Positions 11,327-25,013 of a stretch of 49,044 bases of DNA are shown piece by piece. The stretch is from Ruminococcus flavefaciens. Its GTDB lineage: Bacteria > Bacillota > Clostridia > Oscillospirales > Ruminococcaceae. The position numbers and the translations under genes were made by a program. A model generated the notes under the pieces. The model searched no databases. It saw nothing but the letters and a program-made list of their open reading frames with translations, and had not been told where the DNA came from. The stretch spans positions 1 through 49,044 of the forward strand of contig CACYSQ010000015.1 of assembly GCA_902777125.1 (NCBI GenBank), written 5' to 3'. Numbering within the stretch: the first letter of the stretch is position 1; each line of letters opens with the position of its first letter.

Positions 11327-12250
11327 CTACTTCCTTTTGTAGACGTACAGTTTCCAGTCGCTGTAGTCGCAGAAGAACAATGCGATGTAAAGGTCACGCG
11401 GACGTCCGCGGATACTGTAGACATAGGCGATCGTATAGACCGAGCTTCCGTTTTGCTCACCCCAGACGTAGGTGTTGTCGATGTATTCGTCAATGACAGA
11501 CGGATCGGTGAGGACCTCGGATGTTATGCCGTAGACGATACCGGTGTTGTAGTCGGTATATTCGCGGTATACTTCCTCCGGCGGCAGAGGCTCGTCAGTG
11601 GATATGATCGGTGTTGTAATCTGTGTGAATATCGCCGTGGTGGTCTGGGTTATGGTAGTTGTTGAATAGCCGATAGCAGTGGTGGTAGTGGTGTAGTGTA
11701 TACGGGTAGTCGTGGTATCAGGCGGAGAAGTCGTGCGGCGTGTGGTGGTAGTGACTGTGCACGAGGTCGTAGTGGAAGTCCTTGCTGTTGAGGAAGCCGC
11801 CGAAGTGGTGGTGCGGGACGGGGTCGTGGTTGAAGTCTTGCCGTTCTTTGTGGTCGAACCGGAAGCCGTTGCTGTAGTCTGCGAGACGGCGGTGGTACTG
11901 CTGCCGGGAGCCGTTGTGACGGTGCCGGACGTTGTCCCGGTCGTGGAGGCGGAGGTTCCTGTTTCAGTGACAGCAGGGGAGGTCGGTGTATCAGGGGCGG
12001 ACGAGGGCTGCGGAGGTTCAGTGAGCTCTGACGGTTCTGTAATGAAGGCACTGCTGAAGCTGCCGCTCTTCCGGAAGGCTGAACGTATGGAATCGTTGCC
12101 GAGAAGTCCTGCACCTATGAACACGACTATCATGAGGGAAGCCGCTGCTGCAATGCTTCGGCGAATGATGATGCCGCGTCTCTTTTTCTGCTCGAGGTAT
12201 TCGTCACGGCGCCGGAAAACGCTCTCGGAGATATCCTTATATGATCTCAT
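11327..12250 (-). CDS. Single-span Thr/Ser-rich membrane protein, probable sigma-factor partner
   Basis: A 307-residue protein. ATG at 12250 follows AAGGAGG with 9-nt spacing; an in-frame TTG at 12256 is too close to the site. A basic cytoplasmic N-terminus (residues 1-32, FRRRDEYLEQKKRRG) precedes one membrane span (about 33-52). Next comes a very Thr/Ser/Pro-rich outside linker (about 65-210) and a compact C-terminal domain (about 215-307) with aromatic residues. It overlaps the sigma gene by 14 nt and is translated with it, the usual arrangement for an anti-sigma factor. No zinc anti-sigma motif is visible, and the cytoplasmic part is short, so anti-sigma function is only inferred. The linker suggests a wall-spanning sensor stalk. 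Confidence 0.75.
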   Translation of the reverse strand: MRSYKDISESVFRRRDEYLEQKKRRGIIIRRSIAAAASLMIVVFIGAGLLGNDSIRSAFRKSGSFSSAFITEPSELTEPPQPSSAPDTPTSPAVTETGTSASTTGTTSGTVTTAPGSSTTAVSQTTATASGSTTKNGKTSTTTPSRTTTSAASSTARTSTTTSCTVTTTTRRTTSPPDTTTTRIHYTTTTTAIGYSTTTITQTTTAIFTQITTPIISTDEPLPPEEVYREYTDYNTGIVYGITSEVLTDPSVIDEYIDNTYVWGEQNGSSVYTIAYVYSIRGRPRDLYIALFFCDYSDWKLYVYKRK

Positions 12251-12782
12251 ACTCAAATCCCTCCTTTTCCAGAACTGATCTGAGCGAAGCCTTCGCTCGG
12301 TACAGAAGATTTTCTATCTGCCGTTTGGTCTTGTGCATGACATGGGCGGTTTCGGCATTGCTCAGCTCCTCGAAGAAGGAGAGAAAGAGTACCTGACGGT
12401 ATTCCGGACTGAGCTTGTTCATTGCCCTGTGGAGCTCTATGCGCTGTTCCTCACGGAGGTGGGATTCTTCAAGGGAATGCTCATCGGCAATATCGGTCTC
12501 GCCGAGCGGGACGCTGTGTCTGTGCTTGCGGAGGTAGTCCACGGCGGCGTTATGCGCGATAGAGTAGAGCCATGTCTTGAAGGAGCTTTTGCCTGAGAAA
12601 TTCGGCTTTTTGACGGCGATGCGGAAGAATGTCTCCTCCATTATCTCGTCAGCGAGGTGGAAGTTGTCCGTTATCCCGAGAAGGTAGAGCATGAGCCCGT
12701 CCTTATAGTCGCGGATAAGCTCGACCAGACCGCTGTCGTCACCGTCAAGATAACGGCGGTAGTATCCGGAACCGTTATCCAT
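12237..12782 (-). CDS. ECF-like RNA polymerase sigma factor
   Basis: A 181-residue sigma-70 family factor with regions 2 and 4 only. Region 2 (about residues 25-85) contains ADEIMEETFFRIAVKKP and SSFKTWLYSIAHNAAVDYLRK. Region 4 (about 120-175) contains LSPEYRQVLFLSFFEELS and a helix-turn-helix ending in QIENLLYRAKASLR. The start is the ATG at 12782, 7 nt after GGAGG; two upstream in-frame ATGs are at or before the ribosome site. The gene is first in a two-gene operon with the membrane protein overlapping its end. It probably directs an envelope or extracytoplasmic response. The target regulon is unknown; the divergent neighbour is the acyl carrier protein cluster, but that cluster has an ordinary sigma-A type promoter. 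Confidence 0.9.
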   Translation of the reverse strand: MDNGSGYYRRYLDGDDSGLVELIRDYKDGLMLYLLGITDNFHLADEIMEETFFRIAVKKPNFSGKSSFKTWLYSIAHNAAVDYLRKHRHSVPLGETDIADEHSLEESHLREEQRIELHRAMNKLSPEYRQVLFLSFFEELSNAETAHVMHKTKRQIENLLYRAKASLRSVLEKEGFEYEII

Positions 12783-12884
12783 GGGCATACCTCCTTCCAT
12801 AGAGCTCCGTATATTAGTCGTAACAGAACTCTGAAACTCTCATGATATTCCGGAAAAATTTCCGGCTGTTAAAATCCTATACAT

Positions 12885-12913
12885 ATTATAGCACATATGA
12901 AACGAAATGGCAA
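12885..12913 (-). promoter_or_regulatory. Sigma-A type promoter for the sigma factor operon
   Basis: Minus strand TTGCCA, 17-nt spacer, TATAAT. The transcript leader of about 95 nt contains a 7-bp hairpin at 12850-12865 (CCGGAAA / TTTCCGG). The remaining gap to 13133 shows no gene. Confidence 0.7.
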
Positions 12914-13133
12914 GGCTATCCGGAGGTGAAAACGCTGCAAAAGCAATTATTTTTATCATTTCAGCGACCGCAATAATTAGCCGGAAACCGCGTAAAACAG
13001 CAATATTTGAACGGTCACGGCTGCGTAACACGCTGCACGGCTGAATATACAAGACGTATAATATCAAAAATATATAAAATTCTGTTATATTTTCGGGTCT
13101 TTTCGTGAAAATATGCGAAATTTCGTGCATCTC

Positions 13134-13162
13134 TTGACATCACAATTATAAAATGTTAAGAT
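13134..13162 (+). promoter_or_regulatory. Sigma-A type promoter for the acyl carrier protein biosynthetic cluster
   Basis: TTGACA, 17-nt spacer, TAAGAT, about 30 nt before the acyltransferase ATG. It is the only clear promoter found ahead of the thirteen-gene run. Confidence 0.75.
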
Positions 13163-13192
13163 TGTATTATCAAAGTGTTAAGGAGTTTGCTG

Positions 13193-14086
13193 ATGTTTAA
13201 ACGCGCGTTCCTTTTCAACGGTATAGGCTCAAAGCCCGAAAAGCTGCTCGTGAACCTTCCGCCGCAGCTCATGGAAAAATATGAATGCTACCTCGACGAT
13301 GCCTTTACAAGGCTCGGTCTTTGCAAGGATATAGAAAAAAATTCCGCCTATAACGGCAGAGTCGCTGAATGGGTCATCTCCCTTATCTGCGACAGAGTCG
13401 TTTTTGAATACTACATAGAACAGGGCATTATCCCTGATATCGGTGCCGGCTACAGCTCCGGCATCGTCAGCATAAGTGCCTGCTTCGGTTCGGTCAGCCA
13501 TGAATTCGCCCACGATATCATCATGATGAACCGTTCCACTATGAAATGCCTCGAAGCAAACAATATGAAGCTCGATATGGGCGTTATCATAGGCATGGAC
13601 TATCAGGACGCCACTGAATACCTCGGAAGACGCTTCTCACCCGATGAGCTCATCGTCGGAAGCGGCAATTCCAGTTTCCACGTTATGATAAGCGGCAGGG
13701 CTGACAAGATCGAGGAGGCTCTCGGCTATGCCCTTGAGGGCGGTGCGCTGAAGGCTTTCAGCTTCGGTACCGGAGTCGCTTACCACCACCCCGTTATGGA
13801 GGCTTACACCAAGGAGTACAACGACTTCTGTGCCTCGATAGTCTACAAGGACCCGCTCTATCCCATGATATCCGGCTTCGACTGCCGCATGATAACCACC
13901 GGCGACGAGGTCATGAGAGAGAATATCATCAACTGCTACACCCCTATACGCTGGGACCTCACCCTCAAAAAGCTCGAGGAAATGGGCGTTACCGAGTTCT
14001 TCGACGTAAGTGCGAACGGCGCTGTCAAGAAGTTCTCGCGCGTAAACAGGAGAAAATGCAAAATTTATACCCTTGATGAGGTGTGA
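13193..14086 (+). CDS. FabD-like acyl carrier protein acyltransferase
   Basis: A 297-residue discrete acyltransferase of the malonyl-CoA:ACP transacylase fold. ATG at 13193 lies 7 nt after AAGGAG; six upstream codons in the open frame are not supported. The active-site serine is Ser88 in GAGYSSGI, in place of the usual GHSLGE, so the residue before Ser is Tyr instead of His. Arg114 in MMNRST matches the carboxylate-binding Arg of malonyl enzymes, and His198 in YHHPVM matches the catalytic His. Retained Arg suggests a malonyl or other dicarboxylic substrate, loaded on one of the two ACPs encoded downstream. First gene of the cluster. The divergent elbow indicates a specialised enzyme rather than housekeeping FabD. 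Confidence 0.8.
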   Translation: MFKRAFLFNGIGSKPEKLLVNLPPQLMEKYECYLDDAFTRLGLCKDIEKNSAYNGRVAEWVISLICDRVVFEYYIEQGIIPDIGAGYSSGIVSISACFGSVSHEFAHDIIMMNRSTMKCLEANNMKLDMGVIIGMDYQDATEYLGRRFSPDELIVGSGNSSFHVMISGRADKIEEALGYALEGGALKAFSFGTGVAYHHPVMEAYTKEYNDFCASIVYKDPLYPMISGFDCRMITTGDEVMRENIINCYTPIRWDLTLKKLEEMGVTEFFDVSANGAVKKFSRVNRRKCKIYTLDEV

Positions 14087-14122
14087 ATTTTTCATATATG
14101 CAATAATTCTTCATTGTTCCCC

Positions 14123-14152
14123 GGGCAGTGCCGCCGCAAGACTGCGCTGCCC
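14123..14152 (+). other. Intercistronic hairpin between acyltransferase and ACP genes
   Basis: A 9-bp stem GGGCAGTGC / GCGCTGCCC (one G-U) in the 108-nt gap. No T-run follows, so it is more likely an RNA stability or processing element, or a REP-like remnant, than a terminator. Confidence 0.5.
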
Positions 14153-14194
14153 CATATACCTAAGTTTACTATAATTTTTCAGGAGGATACAAAA

Positions 14195-14497
14195 ATGAGA
14201 GAGCTTACAGATCAGATCAGACAGGAGATCAAGGACATGATCTTCGATTACTACGCAGAGGAATGTGAAGTCGATAGAGACGAGATCACTATGGACACTA
14301 ATCCGCAGGAAGACCTCGGCAGCGATTCACTCATGTTCGTTGAGCTTATCGAGATGACCGCTGACAAGTATGACCTCGATATCAAGCTTCAGAGCATCGG
14401 CAAGTATATGCTCAAGTCGCCTATGGACACAATGAGCAATGTTGTTGATATGTTCTGCAAGATCTATCAGTACGGAAACGATATCGTCAATCAGTAA
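14195..14497 (+). CDS. Acyl carrier protein 1
   Basis: A 100-residue acyl carrier protein. ATG at 14195 follows AGGAGG with 8-nt spacing; the longer open frame upstream runs through the intergenic hairpin and is rejected. The phosphopantetheine site is Ser45 in EDLGSDSLMFVELIE, with the typical acidic helix 2. It is longer than housekeeping AcpP (about 77-80) because of an extended C-terminus (about residues 80-100). It should carry the growing acyl chain as a thioester for the ketosynthase, dehydrogenase and hydratases encoded next to it. A second ACP in the cluster differs in sequence, suggesting separate loading and elongation carriers. Confidence 0.92.
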   Translation: MRELTDQIRQEIKDMIFDYYAEECEVDRDEITMDTNPQEDLGSDSLMFVELIEMTADKYDLDIKLQSIGKYMLKSPMDTMSNVVDMFCKIYQYGNDIVNQ

Positions 14498-14508
14498 GGT
14501 GAATTTTA

Positions 14509-15222
14509 ATGAGGTCGAATTTATCAGAGCTTCGTGCCGAGGATAATATCGCCGTTCTTACTATTGACAACGGTCCGAAAAATCTGCTCACTGAGCCGGA
14601 ATTCATAGACCGAAAGGAGCTCCTCGGCTGGCTGGACGAAAATCCGCAGGTAGGGGCTCTTGTTATTGTAGGAAAGGGCAGACATTTCTCCCACGGTGCA
14701 GACGTTTCACTGTTCGGCAGCGAGGGCACTGATGTGCTCTCCGGAAAGCTCCGCGCTGCAAGGGAGCTTCTCCGTACCATTGAGAGCCTGCCGATAATAA
14801 CCGCTGCTGCAATAAACGGCGGCTGCTTCGGCGGAGGGCTTGAAATAGCCCTGAGCTGTCAGTTCAGAGTGGCTTCGCCCTCGGCATTCCTCGGGCTTCC
14901 CGAGATAATGCACGGCGTTGTTCCCGGAATGGGCGGCATGGAGAGACTTTACCGTCTCCTCGGCAGGGAAAAGGCTTTGCAGATGATACTCGCAGGCGAG
15001 ATGATCCCCGCTAAGGACGCGCTCGATATCGGTCTTGTCACAAGGCTCAGTCAGGAGAAGAACTCCCTCGATGAGACTGTCGCCTTCGTGAAGGAACTCC
15101 TCAGCGGAAAGTCCCTCGCACAGATACACGCCATTATCGAGACCTTCAACAATGCTGACAAGGGTCTGACTGATCCCTCGGACGGACAGTTCGAGAGAGC
15201 GCTGGAGGCGAGGGGAAAATGA
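14509..15222 (+). CDS. Enoyl-CoA hydratase/isomerase family protein 1
   Basis: A 237-residue crotonase-fold enzyme starting 12 nt after the ACP gene. The oxyanion hole motifs are GRHFSHGADVSLF (near residues 58-69) and GGCFGGGLEIAL (104-115). Two acidic residues, Glu112 and Glu132 (GLPEIMHG), are 20 residues apart, the same spacing as the two catalytic Glu of classical enoyl-CoA hydratase, so it should be able to hydrate or dehydrate, or isomerise. In this context dehydration of a 3-hydroxyacyl-ACP is likely. Its stop overlaps the next start by ATGA, indicating coupled translation. Decarboxylase or isomerase activity, as in polyketide beta-branching ECH enzymes, remains possible. Confidence 0.85.
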   Translation: MRSNLSELRAEDNIAVLTIDNGPKNLLTEPEFIDRKELLGWLDENPQVGALVIVGKGRHFSHGADVSLFGSEGTDVLSGKLRAARELLRTIESLPIITAAAINGGCFGGGLEIALSCQFRVASPSAFLGLPEIMHGVVPGMGGMERLYRLLGREKALQMILAGEMIPAKDALDIGLVTRLSQEKNSLDETVAFVKELLSGKSLAQIHAIIETFNNADKGLTDPSDGQFERALEARGK

Positions 15223-15629
15223 GACACAGCACCTACTCTCTGACGGTGCGCGGCTATGAGCTCGACTCATTCGGCCATGTCAACAACTCGGTTTATCTGC
15301 AATACGCCGAGACTGCCCTCTGGAATTTCTTCAAGGTCAACGGTCTGCTCGATATCATAGTGGACGAGGGACTATTCCCGGTCGTCCTCGAGAGCAGCCA
15401 GCGCTATATCCACGAACTGAAGCTCCTCGACGACGTCCGCATAGACACCGAGATGAGCTGTACCGGAGGCATAGTCAGCTACAAGCATAACATCATAAAC
15501 AAGAACACAGGTCTCGTTGCCTGCCGTGTTTCGGGAAAGCTCGCATACGTCAACAAGGAGAGAATGATCTGCGATATCCCGGAGGCGGTAAGGGAATGTC
15601 TGGAGAAGATGGAAAATGAAGATCAATAA
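15219..15629 (+). CDS. Hotdog-fold acyl thioesterase (4HBT, YbgC/FadM-like)
   Basis: A 136-residue single hotdog domain thioesterase. The signature is near residues 13-27: ELDSFGHVNNSVYLQYAE, the D-x-x-GHVNN-x-x-Y motif of 4-hydroxybenzoyl-CoA thioesterase relatives, with the Asp (here ELDS) acting in catalysis. The start overlaps the preceding stop (ATGA). It probably releases the finished acyl chain, or removes intermediates, from ACP or CoA. It is one of two thioesterases in the cluster, the other being an alpha/beta hydrolase, so one is probably for product release and one for proofreading. Confidence 0.85.
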   Translation: MRHSTYSLTVRGYELDSFGHVNNSVYLQYAETALWNFFKVNGLLDIIVDEGLFPVVLESSQRYIHELKLLDDVRIDTEMSCTGGIVSYKHNIINKNTGLVACRVSGKLAYVNKERMICDIPEAVRECLEKMENEDQ

Positions 15630-16035
15630 AAAGGAATTTGTGACAGAGGCTTCGGAAGTTATTGCGCTTTCGGAGCTTTGTGAGAATATCGGAGCCCTCG
15701 GTCAGCCGTGTCTGCTGATGATACGTCCGGCTGAGGTCATGTCGCTGGACGCGGAGTTTCCGGACGATACGCCGTTCATAACAGCGATAGTCCTGAAAAC
15801 GGACGAGGGCTTTTCCGAAGATATGTACAAGCACTTCGACCTCGTTGTCAATGAGGAGGAGGCCGACGAGTACGCGGATAAGCTCTTCAAGGACAAGTCC
15901 CGGAAGCAGATAGAGGAGATCAACCGCTGCTTCATCACGGCAAGAAAGAGCTCTCAGGAGGATATCCTCGAATGCGAGTCCAGAGCCTTCTACAGGCTCA
16001 TGGCTGATAAGAACGGAGGCGGCAGCAATGAGTGA
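15616..16035 (+). CDS. Small crotonase-like fragment protein of unknown function
   Basis: A 139-residue protein overlapping the thioesterase gene by 14 nt and the next hydratase gene by 8 nt. I do not recognise a firm family. Its second half (DLVVNEEEADEYADKLF ... QEDILECESRAFYRLMAD) resembles the C-terminal helical part of enoyl-CoA hydratases, where helices cap the neighbouring subunit. The first half lacks any oxyanion hole or catalytic Glu motif. It could therefore be a non-catalytic crotonase relative that pairs with the hydratases encoded on either side, or a degenerate gene. Tight overlaps on both sides and an intact frame argue that it is translated and kept. Confidence 0.6.
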   Translation: MKINKKEFVTEASEVIALSELCENIGALGQPCLLMIRPAEVMSLDAEFPDDTPFITAIVLKTDEGFSEDMYKHFDLVVNEEEADEYADKLFKDKSRKQIEEINRCFITARKSSQEDILECESRAFYRLMADKNGGGSNE

Positions 16036-16717
16036 TACCATGCTTCTTACCGAGGAAAACGGCATTCTCCGTCTTACTATGAATGCCCCCTCGAACAACC
16101 TCATGACCGCCGATTTCTTCCGCGATTACGAAGCCGTTATGGCTGAGGTCGAGGAGCGTGCAAAGTCCGGAAATATCAAGGGCTTTATCATCTGCGGCGG
16201 CGGACGCCATTTCAGCACCGGCGCTGATGTTGAAGCTCTCGCGGACCGTTCTGCGGACGAAAACTGTGACGGAACAGGCGAGCTCCCGGCGGGTCACATT
16301 AAGCAGAAGCACTTCTTCACGTTCCTCCGCGGACTGAATTTCCCGGTAGTCAGCGTAGTTACGGGCTTCTGTATCGGTTCCGGCAGCGAGATAGCGGTCA
16401 ACAGCCACTACAGGATAATCGAAAAGAACGCCCGCGTGGGTCAGCCAGAGTCCACATTCGGCATACTCCCGGCACTCGGCGGTGTCGCAAGAACTATCGA
16501 CATCTGCGGTATGCAGAACGCCTACGAGCTGGTGATGTCCGGCGAGCTGATACCTGCCGAGAGAGCGTATGAGATAGGCTGGGCGGATATTTTTGCCGAA
16601 AAGAAGCAGGGGATACCTGCTGCCGAAAGGCTCATCGGCTACATCGCCGAAAGAGGAGATTTCGTCCCGGAAAAGGCAAAGACGATAATGCGCGAATACA
16701 AGGAGACTGAGCTATGA
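16028..16717 (+). CDS. Enoyl-CoA hydratase/isomerase family protein 2
   Basis: A 229-residue second crotonase-fold enzyme, ATG preceded by GGAGG within the upstream gene. Oxyanion motifs are GRHFSTGADVEAL (near 59-71) and GFCIGSGSEIAV (113-124). Glu121 and Glu141 (GQPESTFG) keep the 20-residue spacing of classical hydratase acids. An insertion of charged residues (about 72-92) follows the first motif. It overlaps the dehydrogenase gene by ATGA, so both are made together, consistent with a reduction-dehydration module. Whether the two hydratases form a hetero-oligomer, or one acts as an isomerase that shifts the double bond, cannot be told from sequence. Confidence 0.85.
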   Translation: MSDTMLLTEENGILRLTMNAPSNNLMTADFFRDYEAVMAEVEERAKSGNIKGFIICGGGRHFSTGADVEALADRSADENCDGTGELPAGHIKQKHFFTFLRGLNFPVVSVVTGFCIGSGSEIAVNSHYRIIEKNARVGQPESTFGILPALGGVARTIDICGMQNAYELVMSGELIPAERAYEIGWADIFAEKKQGIPAAERLIGYIAERGDFVPEKAKTIMREYKETEL

Positions 16718-17838
16718 AAATAGGAATAGTCGGCTACGGAAAAATGGGCAGGGACATTTTCTCCCTGTTTTTCGATAAGATCAACGGTGCGGAGTTCGTG
16801 GTGCTCGATACCTTCGGCGCTGAGGAAAACACTGCCGCACTGATAAAGACCCTCGATAAGCAGCTCAGGAGGAAAAAGCTCACCGAGGAGCAGTATGAGG
16901 CTAAAAAGAACGCCTTCCTGTTCACCGACAGGGCTGAGGATATGGCTGGCTGCGACGTCGTTATCGAGGCTGTTTTCGAGAACATCGGCGTTAAAAAGGA
17001 GCTTTTCGGAAAGCTTTCCGGCATCGTCGGAAAGGACTGCCTGCTCCTCACGAACACCTCGTCCCTCGATATCGCGGAGGTTTTCGCTGATATCCCCGGC
17101 AGGGAACGCTGCTTCGGTATGCACTTCTTCTACCCCGTAAAGCTCACCGGCTTCGTTGAGCTGAACGTCCTCCCCGAAAATATCCGTGAGAACATTGACA
17201 GGGCGGCTGAAATGGTGGAGCAGACCGGCAAGAAGCCCATAGTTTTTGCCGGTGAGTACCACATCTACCTCAATCAGATACTCTCCTGCATGGTCGCTCA
17301 CGCTATCTACCTCCACGACAGCAAGGGCATATCCGTAAGGGAGACAAGACGCGGTATATCGGGACTTTACGCCGTTGCGGACGCCTTTGAGATACTCGAC
17401 AGCATCGGTCTCGGACTTATGGCGGGAAAGCCGGACGGCTTCCGCATCGAAAGGAACAAGAGCCTCCTCGGCTATAGCTGCGGACGCATGAGCGAATGGC
17501 TGGAGCAGGGCTGTCCGAAGGAGCCGCTGAGCTTCCTCGATTTCATCAGCGAGAAAGAGAACGAGACCGGCAATGATACGAGCGGACTTGACCTCAGCAT
17601 GGCTTCGCTGATACTCTGCGAGCTTGTGAATGCCCTCGAGGACAACAAGGACTGCGATACGGCACTGTTTATCGAGGCTGTTCAGGATACGCTCGGACTT
17701 GCCGAAACACCGGCTCATTACTATAAAAAGTACGGTCCGGAGGCTATCTTCGCCGAGCTCGAAAGGCTCAGCGCTGTTACCGGATTCGGCTCATACACCC
17801 ACGCGGACAAGACCGTCTGGGACGGATACTTAAAGTAG
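16714..17838 (+). CDS. 3-hydroxyacyl-CoA dehydrogenase family protein
   Basis: A 374-residue member of the FadB/HAD-type dehydrogenases. The Rossmann motif is GYGKMG (residues 7-12). The catalytic set is complete with family spacing: Ser116 (NTSSLDI), His137 (GMHFFYPV), Glu149 and Asn187 (YLNQIL), which matches Ser/His/Glu/Asn of human HAD exactly in spacing (21, 12, 38). In the cluster it takes the place of a ketoreductase: no short-chain FabG is present. It would reduce the beta-keto intermediate after each condensation. The C-terminal half keeps both helical domain segments and is of normal length or longer. Use of a beta-oxidation-type dehydrogenase with ACP enzymes is unusual; it may act on CoA thioesters instead. 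Confidence 0.88.
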   Translation: MKIGIVGYGKMGRDIFSLFFDKINGAEFVVLDTFGAEENTAALIKTLDKQLRRKKLTEEQYEAKKNAFLFTDRAEDMAGCDVVIEAVFENIGVKKELFGKLSGIVGKDCLLLTNTSSLDIAEVFADIPGRERCFGMHFFYPVKLTGFVELNVLPENIRENIDRAAEMVEQTGKKPIVFAGEYHIYLNQILSCMVAHAIYLHDSKGISVRETRRGISGLYAVADAFEILDSIGLGLMAGKPDGFRIERNKSLLGYSCGRMSEWLEQGCPKEPLSFLDFISEKENETGNDTSGLDLSMASLILCELVNALEDNKDCDTALFIEAVQDTLGLAETPAHYYKKYGPEAIFAELERLSAVTGFGSYTHADKTVWDGYLK

Positions 17839-17866
17839 TTTTTAGTTAAAGAAAAGGAAAGTGAAT

Positions 17867-19075
17867 ATGAAAAAGATTGTTGTTACAGGATTAGGCGCTG
17901 TTACCGCTATCGGAAATAACGTGAACGATTACTGGGAGGGTCTCCTCGCAGGAAAGTGCGGTATGCGTACATTCGACCGTATCCCGACTGAGGGTCACGA
18001 TACTACCGTTGCGGCTCAGGTCGATGATTCATTCGAGGCTGAGGCTTCAAAATACTGGAAAAAGCGTCAGCTCAACGCCACTACCACCACCACGAGAATG
18101 GGACTTGCTTCCGCAGGCGAGGCTGTTGCAGATGCAGGTCTCGACGAGGGCGAATTCGACCGCAGCAGAGTCGGCGTCATCTACGGCGTTATCGACAACT
18201 CCTACGAGGACTATGAGCTCGACAAGCCCCTCAACATCACGCTGAAAAAGATGCCGAATGAGCTTCCGGCTCTCGTTTCTATCAGGTATGGCTTCGGCGG
18301 TCCCGCTTTCAACCTCAGTACCGCCTGTGCTTCATCGGCTTACGCCCTCGCTATCGGCAAGCAGTTCATCGAGAACGGCACCTGCGATATGGTAGTATGC
18401 GGCGGTATCTCCAATACAGTAACTCACCTCGTTATCAGCGGCTTCAACCAGCTCCTTGCCATGTCGGTAAACCCTGACCCTGCAACGGCTGCGCGTCCCT
18501 TCACCAAGAACCGTGACGGATTCATCATGGGCGAGGGCGGCGGTACCGTGATTATTGAGTCCGAGGAGTCCGCAAAGGCAAGAGGCGCTAAGATATACTG
18601 TGAGCTTGCCGGTGCTGCAATGTGCAGCGAGGCGTTCAACCTCACTGCTCCCAAAACTGACGGAACAGGTATGTCCATATCCATGAGAATGGCTCTGGAG
18701 AACGCTTCTATGTCACCTGACGAGATCGACTACATCAACGCTCACGGCACTTCGACAGGTCTCAACGACCTCTACGAGACTATGGCTATCAAGGACGTTT
18801 TCGGTGAGAGAGCCTACGATATACCGGTATCCTCCGTCAAGGCTTCTATCGGTCATACTCTTGCTGCCGGCGGTGCGCTGGAGGCTATCGCCTGCGTAAA
18901 GGCTATCAATACCGGTATAGTTCCTCCCACGATACACTATGACGAGCCCGACCCGGAACTCGACCTCAACTACGTTCCCAACAAGCCGCAGGAGCATACC
19001 GTGAACGCTGCTATCTCCAATTCCTTCGGCTTCGGCGGTCACAACGCAACGCTGGTATTCAGAAAGTACGAATAA
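17867..19075 (+). CDS. Beta-ketoacyl-ACP synthase (FabF/KS-alpha-like)
   Basis: A 402-residue thiolase-fold ketosynthase. ATG at 17867 lies after AAAGGAA; an in-frame GTG at 17861 is too near. The catalytic triad is intact: Cys154 in LSTACASSAYA, His293 in NAHGTSTGLND and His330 in KASIGHTLAAGGALEA, with Lys325. It therefore should catalyse Claisen condensation and is not a chain-length factor, in which the Cys is lost. It is the only ketosynthase in the cluster, so it either acts alone or borrows a housekeeping partner. A Thr run (ATTTTTTRMG, near residues 71-79) is a minor oddity. Likely substrate is a starter from the AMP ligase with malonyl-ACP extender. Confidence 0.92.
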   Translation: MKKIVVTGLGAVTAIGNNVNDYWEGLLAGKCGMRTFDRIPTEGHDTTVAAQVDDSFEAEASKYWKKRQLNATTTTTRMGLASAGEAVADAGLDEGEFDRSRVGVIYGVIDNSYEDYELDKPLNITLKKMPNELPALVSIRYGFGGPAFNLSTACASSAYALAIGKQFIENGTCDMVVCGGISNTVTHLVISGFNQLLAMSVNPDPATAARPFTKNRDGFIMGEGGGTVIIESEESAKARGAKIYCELAGAAMCSEAFNLTAPKTDGTGMSISMRMALENASMSPDEIDYINAHGTSTGLNDLYETMAIKDVFGERAYDIPVSSVKASIGHTLAAGGALEAIACVKAINTGIVPPTIHYDEPDPELDLNYVPNKPQEHTVNAAISNSFGFGGHNATLVFRKYE

Positions 19076-19081
19076 TTGCAT

Positions 19082-19107
19082 GGGGCGATGTGGGCATCGC
19101 CCCCTAC
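19082..19107. repeat. REP-like palindrome between ketosynthase and tautomerase genes
   Basis: Imperfect palindrome: GGGGCGATG, short spacer, CATCGCCCCCTAC. It belongs to the same family as copies at 24956, 25014, 26074, 26268, 30155, 37295 and 38317. Confidence 0.7.
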
Positions 19108-19131
19108 AGATACATTGAAAGGATAAATAAA

Positions 19132-19488
19132 ATGCCGATCGCACAGATGAAGACAAATTATAAGTTTGCTGCTCCCGAGCTCCGCACAGCATTCCTTGAC
19201 GATGCCGTAAACGAGCTTGCGGATATCCTCAGAAAGCCCCTTCCGGCTATCATGGCAATGCTCGATGAGAGCCCGATGTATATGAACAAGTCAGAGGACA
19301 CCGTATTCTTCGCGGAGTTCAGGTACATTCTCCCGCCTGAATACGCCGACAGCAAGGCGGAATTCCTCAAGGAGCTCGCCGACCGTATGCTGGCACTCAT
19401 ACAGAAGCACACCCACGTTGACCCCTACCGCATTTATATGCAGTTCACCGAAATGACACGCGAGGGCGCGTGGAAATACACCCCCTAA
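19132..19488 (+). CDS. MIF/tautomerase superfamily protein
   Basis: A 118-residue protein starting Met-Pro, so Met removal exposes the N-terminal Pro used by tautomerases as catalytic base. Length and pattern follow the macrophage migration inhibitory factor branch: KPLPAIMAMLDES near 33-45, and the C-terminal DPYRIYMQFTEMTREGAWK, which matches the MIF end in layout. It would form a trimer and tautomerise or isomerise a keto/enol or unsaturated carbonyl compound. Its place inside an ACP cluster suggests action on a polyketide-like keto intermediate, which is inference. A REP-like repeat sits just upstream, so it may be a later addition to the cluster. Confidence 0.8.
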   Translation: MPIAQMKTNYKFAAPELRTAFLDDAVNELADILRKPLPAIMAMLDESPMYMNKSEDTVFFAEFRYILPPEYADSKAEFLKELADRMLALIQKHTHVDPYRIYMQFTEMTREGAWKYTP

Positions 19489-19491
19489 CAG

Positions 19492-19524
19492 GAATTGAGA
19501 ATTGAGAATGAAGAATTGAGAATT
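19492..19524 (+). repeat. Short direct repeat GAATTGAGAATT
   Basis: GAATTGAGAATT-type units overlap and recur three times in 33 bases between the tautomerase and hydrolase genes. It is AT-rich and purine-rich; no function assigned. Confidence 0.6.
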
Positions 19525-19603
19525 ATCGATCAGCTTTCATCTCTTAATCATATTGAATATACTTTTGGGGTATGAAACTTTTTCAAAGAGAGGAATTAAT
19601 AAT

Positions 19604-20728
19604 ATGAAATGGGCAATAAGAGACCTGCTTAACCCCGTAGTTACACGTTCGATGCTCTACGGCAGCGACCCCTTCGACATTGAGTCCATACTCAAAAAAG
19701 TGGACGCTATCAAGGCTATGAGCGGCAAAAAGATACAGGAGGTATGGCTCGGCGAGTGGAATGAGAAGATCCAGCGCTATACCGAGCTCCGCGACAAGGC
19801 TGAGGCTGCCGGAAACAAGATCTCCGCAAGAGAATACGCAAAAATGGTGACCGAGTGTCACTATGCCTGCTTTATGATAAACATTGAGGACGTCGAGAAC
19901 AAGAGAGCTATCTACTCCGGTCTCGAGGAGAGCTACCGTCACTACATAAAGCTCTGCAAGAACAAGGTCGAGTACGCTGAGATAGACACCAAATTCGGCA
20001 AGATACCGGCTTATATCCACTACCCGGATTCCGGCAGAAAGACCGGCTATCCCACTGTTATCACATATTCCGGCATCGGAAGCTGCAAGGAGGAGCTCGA
20101 AATGCTTGCGGCTCCCCTCAACGAGCGCGGCATTGCCGTAATAACTCCCGATATGCCCGGTGCAGGCGCTTCCATTATCCACAACAACATCAAGTGCGGC
20201 GGCAAGCAGATGGAGGCTGCATTTGACGGCATATACAAGTTCGTAAAGGCTCATAAGAAGCTCGACGAGAAGAACATGGCTAACTTCGGTCTCTGCATGG
20301 GCGGCGGCTACGCATTCCGCGCTACCGTCAAGAACCCGAAGGTCAAGGCTTGCGTAAGCCTTTTCCCGCTGCTCATGAACTTCGCCGACCAGGGCTCTAT
20401 CCCGGTGTGGATGAAGCGCGGCAAGTGGAGCAGCTACCAGTACTGCGAGGACTACCTCGAGAGTATGCGCGTTCTTGAGGAGGGCACCCACAAGGCGGAC
20501 TTCCTCATGGTCTACAGCAGCGACGACAACTGGATGACTCCCGAGGCTTCCCAGAAGCTCCTCGACAAGGCTCAGGGCTACAAGGAGTGCATTCACATCG
20601 AGGACAAGCCTGCCTACGTTTCGGAGGAGACTATCATGCACGCAATGCCGGTCGGTGAGCAGTACCACTGGGTAAAGCACATCGCCGCTGATTTCCTTGC
20701 AGAAAGACTTATTGGGGGTAAGAAGTAA
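19604..20728 (+). CDS. Alpha/beta hydrolase with Cys nucleophile (dienelactone hydrolase-like)
   Basis: A 374-residue alpha/beta hydrolase. ATG at 19604 is preceded by GAGAGG; 17 codons upstream in the open frame are not supported. The N-terminal cap (1 to about 145) is helical. The core has ITYSGIGSCKEELEML (oxyanion region near 153-168), the nucleophile elbow FGLCMGGGY with Cys231 instead of Ser, an acid in YSSDDNWMTP (Asp307/308) and candidate His346, 355 or 359. Cys in the elbow is typical of dienelactone hydrolases; layout with a long N-terminal cap also resembles FrsA/DUF1100 esterases. It may hydrolyse or form a lactone or ester of the pathway product. The next gene overlaps its stop by one base. 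Confidence 0.75.
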   Translation: MKWAIRDLLNPVVTRSMLYGSDPFDIESILKKVDAIKAMSGKKIQEVWLGEWNEKIQRYTELRDKAEAAGNKISAREYAKMVTECHYACFMINIEDVENKRAIYSGLEESYRHYIKLCKNKVEYAEIDTKFGKIPAYIHYPDSGRKTGYPTVITYSGIGSCKEELEMLAAPLNERGIAVITPDMPGAGASIIHNNIKCGGKQMEAAFDGIYKFVKAHKKLDEKNMANFGLCMGGGYAFRATVKNPKVKACVSLFPLLMNFADQGSIPVWMKRGKWSSYQYCEDYLESMRVLEEGTHKADFLMVYSSDDNWMTPEASQKLLDKAQGYKECIHIEDKPAYVSEETIMHAMPVGEQYHWVKHIAADFLAERLIGGKK

Positions 20729-22287
20729 TGTCCGCGAATTTTTTTGATTACTACGCAAAGTACGCTCAGGAAACTCCCGACAAGGTGCTCCTGAGAATAG
20801 ACGAGAATGAGCTCACATACAGCGATTTCATGAAGAAGACCGCAGTTCTCGCCTCCGGCATGAAGAAGCTCGGCATCGGTGAGGACGACAAGGTCGGCAT
20901 CTGTATGCCCAACAGCATCGAGTGGTACATCGTTTTCTGGTCGGCAGTAAGAATTGGCGCTCAGCCTGTTCCGATGGACCCGCAGAGCGGTTCGCTCGAG
21001 CTCTCACGCCTTATCCCGGCGACTACCTCGAAGGTAATGTTCATCTCCGAGAAGTACCGCACAAACAACATCATCAAGGCTGTAAGCGACCTCGTTCCCT
21101 CGAAGATACAGCTCGCAAAGGTAGTATGCTTTGCACCCGAGGAGGCTGTTCCGGCTGACGCTGCATACATTTCCGCTGACAAGTTCATCGCTGAATACTG
21201 CGGAACAGACTGCGATATCTACCAGCCCGACTACCTCCACACTATCTCCCTCGCCTGCACATCAGGCAGCACCGGCACTCCCAAGATACTGTCAGTTCCG
21301 TCCGGCGGCTTCCTCTCAACTCAGGAGGAAATGGGAACATACCTCGATTTCACAGCGGACGACGTTATGATGCTCGGCATGACCCTCTATCATCAGGGCG
21401 GCTTCGGCATGGGACTCCAGATGGCTCTCAAGGGCGGTACTGTTATGTACCAGCCGCAGTTCAATCCGATAGACTTCCTTGAAACTGTTCAGAAGTACAG
21501 GATAAACATTATCCAGCTCACCTCAACTCTTGCAAAGGTCCTGCTCTCAACTCCCGACTTTGACAAGTACGACCTTTCAAGCGTCCGCATCTGCTACTTC
21601 GCAGGAGAGGTGCTCCCCAAGGAGATAGCGGACATCTTCGTTGAAAAGCTCGGTATCCGCGTTATCAACGTCATCGGCTCCTCCGAGACCTGCACTATGG
21701 TCGTTTGGGACTCCGCAAGAGATGCCGGCACTGACCCCAGCGACTTCCGCAAGCTCAGCTTCACAGACGTCCGTGTTATCGACGAAAAGCACAATGACGT
21801 TCCCGAGGGCGAGACCGGTGAGCTCTGCGTCTATACTGACGGCGTTATCCTCAACTATTTCGGCAACCCTGAGCTCTCCGCAGAGAAGATACTCACCGAC
21901 GATCAGGGACGCCGCTGGTTCTGCACAGGCGACCTCGTGAACAAGCTTCCCGGCGGTATCGTAAGATTTGCCGGACGCAGCAAGCGTATCATCAAGCGCG
22001 GCGGAAACCTCGTTCACGCCGAGGAGGTAGAAGCCTGCCTGCTCACTCACCCGAAGATAGCTGCCGCAGCCGTTACCGACGAGCCGCACCCTGTTATCGG
22101 TCAGCAGATAGTTGCCTATATTCAGCCAAAGGGCGACGAAAAGGTGACTCGCGGCGAGCTCGCGAAGTATTTCGACGGCAAGCTCTCAGCCTACAAGGTG
22201 CCCGACAAGGTCATTCTCGTTGAGGAGATACCCAAGGACATCGGCAAGATACAGTTCAAATACCTCAGAAAAAAGGAGTATAAATAA
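20728..22287 (+). CDS. Acyl-CoA/acyl-ACP synthetase (AMP-binding)
   Basis: A 519-residue ANL-family adenylating enzyme. Motifs in order: phosphate loop TSGSTGTPK near 178-186, the ATP-binding region VINVIGSSETC near 313-323, WFCTGDLVNK near 402-411, FAGRSKRIIKRGGNLVHAEEVE near 417-438 (hinge and A8), and the C-terminal catalytic Lys in PKDIGKIQFKYLRKK. It should activate a carboxylic acid as acyl-adenylate and transfer it to CoA or, given the ACP gene that overlaps its stop (TAATG), to ACP 2. It thus likely provides the starter unit. The starter cannot be named from sequence. Start overlaps the hydrolase stop by one base. Confidence 0.92.
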   Translation: MSANFFDYYAKYAQETPDKVLLRIDENELTYSDFMKKTAVLASGMKKLGIGEDDKVGICMPNSIEWYIVFWSAVRIGAQPVPMDPQSGSLELSRLIPATTSKVMFISEKYRTNNIIKAVSDLVPSKIQLAKVVCFAPEEAVPADAAYISADKFIAEYCGTDCDIYQPDYLHTISLACTSGSTGTPKILSVPSGGFLSTQEEMGTYLDFTADDVMMLGMTLYHQGGFGMGLQMALKGGTVMYQPQFNPIDFLETVQKYRINIIQLTSTLAKVLLSTPDFDKYDLSSVRICYFAGEVLPKEIADIFVEKLGIRVINVIGSSETCTMVVWDSARDAGTDPSDFRKLSFTDVRVIDEKHNDVPEGETGELCVYTDGVILNYFGNPELSAEKILTDDQGRRWFCTGDLVNKLPGGIVRFAGRSKRIIKRGGNLVHAEEVEACLLTHPKIAAAAVTDEPHPVIGQQIVAYIQPKGDEKVTRGELAKYFDGKLSAYKVPDKVILVEEIPKDIGKIQFKYLRKKEYK

Positions 22288-22538
22288 TGAATAACCTCAA
22301 TTTTGATGAATTCGTTCAGACTATCGCGGACTACACAGGAGTTGACGCTTCCGAGATAAACCGCGATACCGACGTTTACGATGACCTCTACCTCGATTCC
22401 CTCGGACTTTTCGGTCTCGGCTCTCAGATAACCGAGAACTACAAGCTCAATATCCCGCTCTCACTTGTCGCTTCTATCAGCAAGGTAGGCGAGATATTCG
22501 ACCTCCTCAACGAAAAGGGAACTCCCGTAGAGGAATAA
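22287..22538 (+). CDS. Acyl carrier protein 2
   Basis: An 83-residue acyl carrier protein, stop/start overlapping the ligase gene. The phosphopantetheine site is Ser38 in DDLYLDSLGLFGL; Tyr-Leu replaces the usual Gly-Ala before Asp-Ser. Housekeeping length. Position directly after the AMP ligase suggests it takes the activated starter acid, while ACP 1, next to the acyltransferase, may carry malonate. This division of labour is inferred. Confidence 0.9.
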   Translation: MNNLNFDEFVQTIADYTGVDASEINRDTDVYDDLYLDSLGLFGLGSQITENYKLNIPLSLVASISKVGEIFDLLNEKGTPVEE

Positions 22539-22539
22539 T

Positions 22540-23238
22540 ATGGTATTGTTTTTTCTCCCTCATGCAGGCGGTTCCGCAAAGAGCTACAGCTCGTTCAAGC
22601 GCTTTCTCCCGAAGGAGCTGAACGTTGTCCCGATGGAGCTTTCCGGACGCTTCACGCGTTCCGGTGAGCCTTTGCTCGATACCGTTGAGGACTGCGTTTC
22701 CGACCTCATCGGAAAGCACCGTTCCCTCCTTGAGACTGAGGACTATGCTGTCTTCGGACACAGTATGGGCACGGTCCTCGCGTGTGAGCTTGTCCGTCAG
22801 GCTAAGGCGGAGGGACTGAAAATGCCGGTACACGTTTTCTTCTCCGGCAAGAACCCTCCCGATGAGGGCGTTCACTGCTTCGAGAATGTGGAGAACGCCT
22901 CCGATGATGAAATAGTCGCTTTCTTCAGCAAAAACTCCCTGTCCTCGAACGCTCCCGTTCCGGACGAGGAGCTTATGCGGACGCTCAACCGCATACTCTG
23001 CACTGATGTGCGTATGGCTGAACGCTGCAGCGTCTCACCGGAGCAGGTCGGACTTTCCTGCGGTATCACGGTGCTGTACGGCACTGAGGATATGCTCATG
23101 CAGGACGTTGATATGCGGAGCTGGCAGAGGTTCACGGCAGGGGAATGCAGAGTGTATCCGTTCTCGGGCGGACATTTCTACTACGCCCAGCACAAGGAAG
23201 AGGTCTGCCGCATCATTGCGGAAAGGCTCGGGATATAA
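22540..23238 (+). CDS. Type II (external) thioesterase, GrsT/RifR-like
   Basis: A 232-residue alpha/beta hydrolase typical of thioesterases found with NRPS and PKS systems. It opens with LFFLPHAGGSAKSY (oxyanion region, residues 3-16), MELSGRFTR near 32-40, the nucleophile elbow VFGHSMGTVL with Ser75, an acid in YGTEDMLM and the His in FSGGHFYYAQH. Such enzymes free misacylated carrier proteins and can also release products. The start lies one base after the ACP 2 stop, and the cluster ends at the terminator just after this gene. Its presence is the strongest local sign that this is a secondary-metabolite type pathway and not primary fatty acid metabolism. Confidence 0.9.
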   Translation: MVLFFLPHAGGSAKSYSSFKRFLPKELNVVPMELSGRFTRSGEPLLDTVEDCVSDLIGKHRSLLETEDYAVFGHSMGTVLACELVRQAKAEGLKMPVHVFFSGKNPPDEGVHCFENVENASDDEIVAFFSKNSLSSNAPVPDEELMRTLNRILCTDVRMAERCSVSPEQVGLSCGITVLYGTEDMLMQDVDMRSWQRFTAGECRVYPFSGGHFYYAQHKEEVCRIIAERLGI

Positions 23239-23254
23239 AATTCACATTACGAAA

Positions 23255-23289
23255 AATGCTCATACAAGAACTGTATGAGCATTATTTTT
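23255..23289. terminator. Bidirectional terminator after the ACP cluster and flippase gene
   Basis: Perfect 12-bp stem AATGCTCATACA / TGTATGAGCATT with an AGAAC loop, then ATTTTT on the plus strand; AATTTTT-like tract also on the minus strand side. It sits between two convergent genes. Confidence 0.88.
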
Positions 23290-23298
23290 GCGTCTGTA

Positions 23299-24732
23299 TT
23301 ACGCTCTGCGTCGGCAGAGCTTTTTTATGGTTGCGGAGAATTCCTTGCTGTAGAAGCTTATGACTGCGATTATCATGAAGGTCAGCCACAGTCCGTACAG
23401 TGCCGGCTTCGTGATGATGACCCAGCACATGATGAGGAGAAGTCCGGTATTAGCAAGCGATTTCACGGCATTGAACCTGAACGGAACATAGTACCTTGCG
23501 TCGATTATTCTTGCCCAGAAGCAGAGGTAATAGCTGAGGAAGGTCGCAATAGCGGCGCCGTGTATTCCCCATTCGGGTATGAGGAAGAAGTTGAGGACGA
23601 GGTTCGCCATGCTTGCGGCAAAGCTTGTCCAGAAGGAGTTTTTCGTGTGCTTTGTAGCTGTGTATATACTGCTCAGGAATTGGTCGAGGCACATGAAAAG
23701 CACTGCAACAACGAGCACAGGAGTGTACTTGTATACCTGACCGTATTCACCGAAGCGGGCAGTGCTGACGAATATCGGGGTGACTATCTGGACGCCTGCA
23801 ATTAGAAATGCCGAGAATATGAACAGGACCGCTTCGTAAGCGCCGTAGACCTTCTCATAGAACCGGCTTCGGTCCTCGGATTCGTTCTCCATGATAGCGG
23901 ACATATTCCACGCCTGGAAGAATATCGTCGAGACCATTGATATGAGGTTCGGGACCTTTGTTGCAAGTCCGTAGATACCGGCAGCGCTCTCACCGAGCTC
24001 GACCTTGCTGCTGTGCATATAGCGTATGAACAGTCTGTCCGAGAAGCCCGTGATGACCCACATCACGACCGTTGGTATCAGCGGTACCGCAAATCTCATC
24101 ATGCTCGTTGCGAGGCGCTTGTTATAGCATTCAAGGCTGAGATAGCGGTGAAGTCCCGCAATGATGAACAGGAAAACTGCCGAGCAGAAGTCCGAGAGTA
24201 TGACCGAGAGCATGAAGCCCTTTACGCCCCAGTGGAAGTTCGAGATGAAAAGTATGCTGAATATCAGCAGGGTTATCGTGGCGAGAATGCCGTCGAGGGA
24301 ATAGAGCTTGACCATTCCCCTTGCACGGACAAACTGCGAGCACAGCGCCCTGAACGCCGAGGTGCAGACGTAAACCAGCAGGAGTATCGTATAGCCGTCG
24401 ATGAAGTCGAGGAACGATATCAGCCGGAATATCGGCGAAAGTATCAGCATGAGGACAAGTCCCATTCCGTTGAGGACGGTCGCCGTGGTAAAGACCTCGG
24501 ATTTATCGTATTTGTTGTCGAGACCGAAGCGGATAATGGCTTCCGTCATCGAGAAGGTGAATATCGGCAGGAGGAAATTCGCTGTTATCTCAAGGAGCTC
24601 CTTTGTGCTGAGGTCGGCAGGGCTGATATTCTTTGTATACAGCCTCGTAAGGAGCATTACGAGTATCTTCGAGCCGAAGCTGCCTATGGCGAAAATTATT
24701 GTGTTGAATGCAAGCTTTTTATATTTGTTCAT
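23299..24732 (-). CDS. Polysaccharide/oligosaccharide flippase (Wzx/MATE-like)
   Basis: A 477-residue polytopic membrane protein with about 12-14 hydrophobic spans and little else, starting MNKYKKLAFNTIIFAIGSFG, a typical start of polysaccharide-biosynthesis flippases of the MOP superfamily. The ATG at 24732 follows GGAGAG; the ATG at 24747 has no site. It should move a lipid-linked saccharide or similar polyprenyl-linked unit across the membrane. It has its own promoter and stands alone, convergent with the ACP cluster. A link with the envelope cluster at 3195-11254 is possible but not shown by position. Confidence 0.85.
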   Translation of the reverse strand: MNKYKKLAFNTIIFAIGSFGSKILVMLLTRLYTKNISPADLSTKELLEITANFLLPIFTFSMTEAIIRFGLDNKYDKSEVFTTATVLNGMGLVLMLILSPIFRLISFLDFIDGYTILLLVYVCTSAFRALCSQFVRARGMVKLYSLDGILATITLLIFSILFISNFHWGVKGFMLSVILSDFCSAVFLFIIAGLHRYLSLECYNKRLATSMMRFAVPLIPTVVMWVITGFSDRLFIRYMHSSKVELGESAAGIYGLATKVPNLISMVSTIFFQAWNMSAIMENESEDRSRFYEKVYGAYEAVLFIFSAFLIAGVQIVTPIFVSTARFGEYGQVYKYTPVLVVAVLFMCLDQFLSSIYTATKHTKNSFWTSFAASMANLVLNFFLIPEWGIHGAAIATFLSYYLCFWARIIDARYYVPFRFNAVKSLANTGLLLIMCWVIITKPALYGLWLTFMIIAVISFYSKEFSATIKKLCRRRA

Positions 24733-24768
24733 TTGCCCACTCTCCATTGTTCTATATCTGTATCTTAC

Positions 24769-24982: not shown

Positions 24983-25013
24983 AAAACGTGGTGGGGAGTT
25001 GAAAGGTATGCCC

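Follow-up and report, generated by a model that had tools for sequence, protein, structure and literature searches.

A 13-gene operon in a 49,044-nucleotide window of the Ruminococcus flavefaciens genome (positions 1 to 49,044 of contig CACYSQ010000015.1, assembly GCA_902777125.1) probably encodes an acyl carrier protein (ACP)-dependent pathway to a coloured polyene, which is best identified as the yellow pigment of this species. Judging from the sequence, we put the chance that this reading is right at about one in two. The genes fill positions 13193-23238 of the plus strand in the order AT-ACP1-ECHa-TE-U139-ECHb-HAD-KS-tautomerase-hydrolase-ligase-ACP2-TE2 (AT, acyltransferase; ECHa and ECHb, crotonases; TE, hotdog thioesterase; HAD, 3-hydroxyacyl-CoA dehydrogenase-type reductase; KS, ketosynthase; TE2, type II thioesterase; Table 1). 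They overlap or are separated by at most 57 nt; only the gaps before ACP1 and before the hydrolase gene are longer, at about 110 nt each. The operon thus presents one short candidate locus for the R. flavefaciens pigment, in isolates with named genomes, and its carriers in Ruminococcus are bacteria central to fibre digestion in ruminants. If the reading is true, yellow polyene pigments arose two or more times among cellulolytic anaerobes, and β-oxidation-type enzymes do the reducing work in a system that builds chains on ACP. The genome carrying the window is 2.62 Mb long in 46 contigs and 97.5% complete. The closest named relatives of the window are the sheep-rumen metagenome-assembled genome (MAG) RGIG6695, followed by R. 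flavefaciens MAGs and isolates, all of them Ruminococcus.

A preliminary description of this region had listed an acyltransferase, two ACPs, one active ketosynthase, a 3-hydroxyacyl-CoA dehydrogenase with the exact catalytic spacing of its family, two competent crotonase-fold hydratases, a ligase and two thioesterases. All ten of these genes are found in the one plus-strand operon. The description overlooked U139, the MIF-type tautomerase and the AntI/Ayg1-related hydrolase, three conserved genes that probably take part in the pathway. Twelve of the 13 open reading frames (ORFs) have a family match or a profile relationship, some of them under the curated cut-off (AT, tautomerase); for U139, family searches of the sequence gave no match above the cut-off. 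In family alignments of 30-35 members per gene with few gaps, the catalytic Cys, His, Lys and His of the FabF-type ketosynthase are kept in 35/35 members. This ketosynthase is 41% identical to the only other KS of its genome, which lies on a different contig and is presumably FabF. The serines of both ACPs are conserved in every aligned row, as are the Ser and His of the acyltransferase (32/32). In the latter, N119 aligns with the malonate-binding Arg of FabD, an Arg follows at position 120 in 26/32 rows, and the FabD oxyanion Gln and malonate Arg are not kept in register. Given these departures from FabD, malonyl is the likely but not the certain extender. The solved relatives recovered with the ligase profile are mixed and include salicylate, feruloyl, 2,3-dihydroxybenzoate (DHB) and coumarate ligases along with fatty acyl-CoA synthetases and peptide synthetases.

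The reducing half of the operon resembles β-oxidation enzymes. The catalytic Ser116, His137, Glu149 and Asn187 of the dehydrogenase are present in 35/35 members, and both crotonases are predicted to be competent from their paired catalytic glutamates (ECHa, Glu112 in 34/34 with one gap and Glu132 in 35/35; ECHb, Glu121 and Glu141 in 35/35; in each of the two alignments one locus is represented by a paralogue, and one ECHa is truncated). The AlphaFold2 (AF2) model of the dehydrogenase has a mean pLDDT of 94. Its best folds among the matches listed are mostly α chains of β-oxidation trifunctional enzymes, with TMq of 0.70-0.77 over about 400 columns (0.76-0.77 for the best), as against 0.56-0.57 for single-domain 3-hydroxybutyryl-CoA dehydrogenases. 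Since the full-length match surpasses that to the single-domain enzymes, the C-terminal half of the protein, which has no Pfam match, appears to resemble the C-terminal part of the trifunctional α chain. Natural fusions tie the neighbouring genes together: among 100 fetched loci (L-numbers hereafter) of two overlapping sets, ECHb and the dehydrogenase form a single ORF of 601 aa at one locus (L112), and U139 and ECHb form a single ORF of 389 aa at three (L088, L097 and L119). The AF2 model of U139 (mean pLDDT 87) gives weak Foldseek matches, and those listed are crotonase-superfamily structures (E 0.02-0.35, TMq 0.41-0.56). Its best-conserved part aligns with the C-terminal segment of ECHa at a weak hhalign probability of 27% and with ECHb at 1%, and a Pfam scan of 31 U139 members gave scattered weak matches, none of them to the ECH family. 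U139 may thus be a non-catalytic crotonase remnant that completes the short-tailed ECHb. Because of the natural fusions and the fold of the dehydrogenase, we regard HAD, ECHb and U139 as a FadB/FadJ-like module. By the chemistry of these families, reduction by the dehydrogenase gives an (S)-alcohol, which dehydration by the crotonase turns into a trans double bond.

From these parts we infer the substrates, the number of rounds, the product and its colour as follows. The starter, a carboxylic and perhaps an aryl acid, would be activated by the ligase onto ACP2 or CoA, and the acyltransferase would put the extender, probably malonyl, on ACP1. The FabF-type ketosynthase would then condense starter and extender, and the module of HAD, ECHb and U139 would turn the β-ketone into the (S)-alcohol, probably at the expense of NADH, before dehydrating it, with ECHa catalysing a second dehydration or a shift of the double bond. 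Each round would leave a double bond, and because the operon has no enoyl reductase the double bonds would be retained, so that repeated rounds would yield a polyene. At the chain end an isomerisation, trimming or cyclisation would be carried out by the tautomerase and the Cys α/β-hydrolase, and the chain would be released or proofread by the thioesterases. As previously claimed, no FabG-type ketoreductase, FabZ-type dehydratase, enoyl reductase, second KS or chain length factor (CLF) is found among the 13 genes; for the first three the search covered the operon, and housekeeping Fab enzymes could act in trans. The earlier proposal of reversed β-oxidation working on ACP holds in part. Reduction and dehydration of the β-oxidation type fit the sequence, the fusions and the FadB/trifunctional-α fold. 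The cycle itself would stop at the enoyl stage, because the operon has no thiolase or acyl-CoA dehydrogenase and growth would proceed by a decarboxylating FabF-type KS. Likewise, the unsaturated part of the proposed unsaturated or polyene-like product fits the sequence evidence, and the polyene is what we infer from it.

The presence of two ACPs, an acyltransferase, a ketosynthase and a ligase argues for synthesis on ACP. The enzymes could instead catabolise an aryl or fatty acid by β-oxidation, given that a ligase, two hydratases and a 3-hydroxyacyl-CoA dehydrogenase make up the classical set. But the acyltransferase, the two ACPs and a KS with the Cys-His-Lys-His residues are anabolic, no thiolase or acyl-CoA dehydrogenase is found in the window operon, and 99/100 of the fetched cassettes hold no further ORF of at least 120 aa (L109 has one). 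On account of the acyltransferase, the two ACPs, the decarboxylating-type KS and the ligase, together with the missing thiolase and acyl-CoA dehydrogenase, synthesis is far likelier than breakdown, and we consider a catabolic role very improbable.

The two genes that follow the ketosynthase bear on the end of the chain. The Pro after Met, which would become N-terminal once the Met is removed, and the Lys of the tautomerase, as expected in the MIF/tautomerase superfamily, are present in 34/34 members. The Pfam MIF score (16.2 bits, E 0.013) falls under the cut-off of 22, and the family profile matches MIF/L-dopachrome isomerase chains, the best at 1.2e-8. The best solved relatives found with the hydrolase profile are DHPON hydrolase (2jbw, 2.3e-14), AntI of Photorhabdus (4.9e-13) and an Ayg1-like protein (9e-11), with homology over the α/β-hydrolase domain and part of the N-terminal domain; the word 'pigment' occurs in the PDB molecule name of an Ayg1 entry. 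These families cleave a C-C bond next to a ketone, and AntI and Ayg1 have a polyketide-trimming role in which they act by cyclisation or retro-Claisen cleavage. The operon hydrolase has a Cys nucleophile where the two aligned relatives have Ser, and its Cys, Asp and His are present in 34/34 members. The Cys may favour acyl transfer or cyclisation over simple hydrolysis.

The operon might instead make a small cyclic or aromatic metabolite, in which a short, partly reduced chain is enolised by the tautomerase and cyclised, or cleaved in a retro-Claisen reaction, by the Cys hydrolase. The kinship of the hydrolase to AntI, Ayg1 and DHPON hydrolase and the conserved tautomerase speak for such a product, as does the fact that tautomerase, hydrolase, ligase and ACPs are among the best conserved proteins of the operon (median identity to the window 79-89%). 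However, two dehydratase-type crotonases with intact active sites plus a reductase exceed the needs of a short aromatic chain, and no aromatase/cyclase family match was found among the 13 genes. We regard this alternative as unlikely, though deserving of attention, and retain the polyene as the preferred product.

The operon is conserved within the genus and patchy among its genomes. A search with the dehydrogenase in 149 genomes, its own included, gave matches in 47, of which 36 lie within Ruminococcus (36/90 genomes of the genus) and 11 outside it, the latter being weak (38-89 bits, at most 35% identity). The neighbourhoods of all genus matches except the window itself and G040, where a contig end truncates the match, were compared (34 neighbourhoods, L023-L056). 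All 13 genes are present in 26/34; for the remaining ones contig ends interrupt the cassette, and L055 and L034 show real gaps. Scanning a collection in which each species has one genome recovered 66 loci, a set that overlaps with the genus neighbourhoods and whose entries are titled Ruminococcus, Oscillospiraceae, Clostridiales or Bacillota. All 13 genes occur in 45/66, and the order of the genes present is kept in 64/66, the hydrolase gene being placed before the KS gene in L115 and L116. Profile searches recovered the complete set in 74 of the 100 fetched loci. In other Clostridia, distant hydrolase matches were found in 23 further genomes among 391, and seven neighbourhoods examined at 1e-3 held only the cassette hydrolase or nothing. 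The ratio dN/dS is 0.016-0.33 for all genes when the window is compared with L023 and with L024, U139 having the highest value. With every gene below 0.34, the operon is under purifying selection, and this range together with the recurrence of 13 genes in order shows that the operon is not a chance assembly. One MAG from yak omasum, RGIG9739, has two different copies of the cassette (L064 and L081), with only some genes called in L081.

The species name flavefaciens refers to the yellow pigment. A yellow pigment is described as a special feature of R. flavefaciens (PMC8865330), formed particularly on cellulose (PMC9653558); isolates of R. albus as well as R. flavefaciens are reported to form it on cellulose (PMC11055587), and in cellulolytic ruminococci its intensity is said to be in rough correlation with the ability to degrade cellulose (PMC9785684). 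Our literature search found neither the genes for this pigment nor a statement that it is a polyketide. The operon is present in 11 named isolates, nine of R. flavefaciens (ATCC 19208, FD-1, 007c, MA2007, ND2009, Y1, YAD2003, YL228 and SAb67) and two of R. albus (AR67 and KH2T6). KS genes were counted in these and in the genome of the window, 12 cluster-bearing genomes in all. Two KS matches each were found in the genome of the window, 007c, YL228, YAD2003, Y1, MA2007, AR67 and KH2T6, so that these 8/12 genomes have the operon KS, one other KS of 416-445 aa presumed to be FabF, and no further one. We assign the second KS to FabF on the strength of a KASIII gene found on its contig. Should the pigment be a polyketide that a KS of this family makes, the operon is the sole candidate in those eight genomes. 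The other four have 3 (ATCC 19208), 7 (FD-1, fragments included), 6 (ND2009) and 21 (SAb67) matches; most of those in SAb67 lie on one contig in ORFs of up to 3096 aa, and other long KS ORFs are found in ND2009, ATCC 19208 and FD-1, one of those in FD-1 containing an internal TAG. A carotenoid origin of the pigment was also considered and found no support: squalene/phytoene synthase (SQS_PSY) matches were found in 0/12 cluster-bearing genomes, with 7/14 controls positive.

The same enzymology would equally serve a colourless polyunsaturated signal or antibiotic unrelated to the pigment, and the patchy distribution is like that of many specialised metabolites. But the pigment needs genes, and eight of the 12 genomes have no KS beyond the presumed FabF and that of the operon; we consider a colourless product quite improbable and the pigment the better assignment.

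Among the closest known systems is the cex/faf cluster for celluxanthene/flavoaffinin in Clostridium thermocellum, likewise a cellulolytic anaerobe, and with the same kinds of genes as here in its AMP ligase (CexD), stand-alone ACP (CexB) and α/β-hydrolase (CexE). Its product is a yellow polyene, as is proposed for the Ruminococcus operon. The cex cluster employs an iterative type I polyketide synthase (PKS) with ketoreductase (KR) and dehydratase (DH) domains, two KASIII and a phosphopantetheinyl transferase (PPTase), none of which is found in the Ruminococcus operon (PMC12144888, PMC11839114). The latter instead has a discrete FabF-type KS, the dehydrogenase and the crotonases. Both KS of the window's genome lie in ORFs of only 409-440 aa; no KASIII is found in the operon, and 11/12 cluster-bearing genomes have only one above the cut-off, which shares its contig with the presumed FabF. 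For R. flavefaciens DSM 25089 a report mentions neither a cex-like cluster in the genome nor celluxanthenes detected in culture, both being stated as absent (PMC12144888).

The aryl polyene (APE) clusters of Gram-negative bacteria have a discrete KS, ACPs, a ligase and a thioesterase and no enoyl reductase, all as in the operon. They also have a KS-CLF pair, a FabG-type ketoreductase and a hotdog dehydratase. Their starter unit is aryl, and in this respect the solved relatives of the operon ligase are mixed. In the Ruminococcus operon the dehydrogenase and the crotonases would replace the latter two, and its sole hotdog protein matches 4HBT thioesterases. With FadB/FadJ and the trifunctional enzymes the operon shares a crotonase with the two catalytic Glu and a 3-hydroxyacyl dehydrogenase with a matching fold and the same catalytic Ser, His, Glu and Asn; unlike in those enzymes, the two are separate (fused only at L112), and a FabF-type KS with ACPs replaces thiolase and CoA, no thiolase partner being found. 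ActVI-ORF1 and the hydroxymalonyl-ACP dehydrogenases are HAD-type enzymes of polyketide pathways or acting on ACP that tailor one intermediate or make an extender, whereas the dehydrogenase here would be a chain ketoreductase joined to crotonases. With type II fatty acid synthases the operon has in common the FabF-type KS with ACP and AT, and it has no FabG, FabZ or enoyl reductase. On the features tested, the operon belongs with neither the aryl polyene nor the cex clusters, and the difference from aryl polyene and ordinary type II fatty acid synthase gene sets noted in the preliminary description is borne out. It is a variant of the type II fatty-acid/polyketide systems with an unusual β-oxidation-type reducing half, and no published description of it was found in a search of the literature at title level, with supplementary files outside the search. 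A more specific proposal, which we offer tentatively, is that a FabF-type synthase took over the reducing and dehydrating half of FadB/FadJ, moved it from CoA to ACP, and put it to the service of a yellow cellulose-associated pigment that is chemically and genetically unrelated to the celluxanthenes, with the Cys hydrolase and the tautomerase installing a new head group.

Several observations weigh against the proposed pathway or its identification with the pigment. R. albus is 'white' by name, two R. albus isolates carry the operon, and four of the 12 genomes have further KS genes that could make the pigment. The APE-type KS-CLF pair is absent, with one KS in the operon and the other on another contig, and the crotonase assignment of U139 relies on weak scores of a predicted structure. 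The acyltransferase is absent from L055 (on one contig with L076), where further sequence extends upstream, L118 has no 4HBT thioesterase, and U139 and almost the whole of ECHb are missing from L034/L064; the missing acyltransferase and the missing 4HBT thioesterase are either real losses or assembly faults. Much of the synteny reflects one shared chromosomal setting rather than independent insertions, given that 22/34 neighbourhoods share an upstream gene; this setting has no bearing on the enzymology or the KS counts. Nor does the operon track GH48, which was tried as a cellulose-degradation marker separating operon carriers and was rejected (79/90 genus genomes have it and 11 do not; 32/36 with the operon versus 47/54 without). 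In the literature, no report was found of pigmentation in individual cluster-bearing isolates. One review contrasts unpigmented albus-like isolates with R. flavefaciens (PMC8865330). The strain examined for celluxanthenes, DSM 25089, is called strain 17 in PMC6456569, and it may or may not carry the operon. Finally, a pigment need not matter for the use of cellulose, because C. thermocellum Δcex is reported to grow on cellulose like the wild type, with no pronounced effect.

The surroundings of the cassette recur within a group of loci, and the cassette itself is the part common to all settings, which sets its borders. In 22/34 genus neighbourhoods a related co-directional ORF lies 5' of it, mostly within 750 nt, and PF12822 (ECF transporter S component) is matched by 5/5 of those tested. 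Nearby in 19/34 is a large divergent ORF of one family, with SpaA and Cna_B domains in the copy of L028, and 16/34 have another recurrent ORF downstream, in opposite orientation, which is an ABC-2 transporter in L028, the one member tested. The transporter-type ORFs L028:3309-4496 and L028:15003-16181 are examples. None of the three recurrent ORFs is found in the window at 1e-3, and these transporter genes may or may not serve the cassette as uptake or export partners. The window has genes for a YidC-glycerophosphotransferase and a sigma factor upstream and a flippase-like gene downstream.

Another alternative is that the operon acts in making or remodelling an envelope lipid with an unusual unsaturated or hydroxy acyl chain, rather than a secreted specialised metabolite. 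The FabF-type KS, the ACPs and the thioesterases would suit this, and so would the YidC-glycerophosphotransferase gene near the cassette in the window and in four relatives and the large divergent ORF with its surface-protein domains in L028. Yet the dehydrogenase occurs in only 36/90 genomes of the genus, the YidC neighbour in only 5/35 neighbourhoods (some cut short), and the ABC-2 transporter-type gene found 3' in 16/34 could mean export. A set of ligase, ACP2 and type II thioesterase together with an AntI-like hydrolase is moreover unusual in lipid synthesis. An envelope lipid is therefore rather improbable, and the polyene pigment is kept as the favoured product.

Table 1. Genes and putative control elements of the Ruminococcus operon. 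Start codons of AT (13193, ATG), ACP1 (14195), tautomerase (19132) and hydrolase (19604) were refined from sequence and conservation.
Feature	Position	Strand	Evidence
Likely operon promoter, TTGACA-17 nt-extended -10 TGtTAAGAT	13134..13162	+	sequence and conservation
AT, acyltransferase, FabD/MdcH-like, divergent	13193..14086	+	Ser94/His204 (303-aa numbering)
ACP1, acyl carrier protein 1, GSDSLM	14195..14497	+	PF00550; Ser 33/33 rows
ECHa, crotonase, catalytic Glu E112 and E132	14509..15222	+	PF00378 1.5e-34; nearest solved relatives enoyl-CoA hydratases
TE, hotdog (4HBT) thioesterase, Asp16	15219..15629	+	PF13279 2.2e-17
U139, putative shrunken crotonase-like protein without active-site motifs	15616..16035	+	AF2, Foldseek, fusions to ECHb
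ECHb, crotonase, catalytic Glu E121 and E141, short C-terminus	16028..16717	+	PF00378 2.7e-25
HAD, 3-hydroxyacyl-CoA dehydrogenase-type reductase, C-terminal half as FadB/FadJ	16714..17838	+	PF02737 1.2e-37
KS, FabF-type ketosynthase, C156/H295/K327/H332	17861..19075	+	TIGR03150 428 bits, cut-off 494 not reached
MIF/tautomerase family protein, Pro after Met, conserved Lys	19132..19488	+	family profile vs MIF chains
α/β-Hydrolase of DHPON hydrolase/AntI/Ayg1 kin, GLCMGG (Cys for Ser), Asp, His	19604..20728	+	profile search
AMP-forming acyl/aryl ligase	20728..22287	+	PF00501 4.3e-61
ACP2, acyl carrier protein 2, YLDSLG	22287..22538	+	PF00550 3.8e-8; Ser 30/30
TE2, type II thioesterase, GHSMG	22540..23238	+	PF00975 4.4e-31; Ser/His 30/30
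Terminator-like hairpin after last gene, 12-bp stem then T-rich tail	23255..23283	+	

The likely promoter is supported by conservation, TTGACa ... gTG.TAA.AT being among the best-kept stretches in an alignment of 32 sequences 5' of the AT gene; over the whole region 13 promoter-like sites were counted, compared with 8.1 (sd 3.0) in shuffles. Terminator-like sites (14 versus 9.8, sd 3.4) are not clearly in excess. No Rfam RNA elements were found in 11000-26600.

Upstream of the operon, the ORF at 9218-11254 (+) codes for 678 aa with a YidC/Oxa1 insertase domain (22-273) and a CDP-glycerol glycerophosphotransferase-like domain (456-593), and its homologues near the cassette in L023, L031, L043 and L050 align over 677-678 residues with 81-89% identity. 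An ECF sigma factor followed by a Thr/Ser/Pro-rich protein is encoded at 11327-12800 (-), divergently from the operon; L023 has a sigma factor of 78% identity 3' of the cassette, and the other 33 neighbourhoods gave no match. Directly 3' of the operon, 23299-24747 (-) codes for a MATE/polysaccharide-flippase-like protein, which among the 34 neighbourhoods has a relative only in L053, upstream of the cassette. Further downstream, the ORF at 25849-26472 (+) is related to IS200-like transposases by a weak Pfam match under the cut-off.

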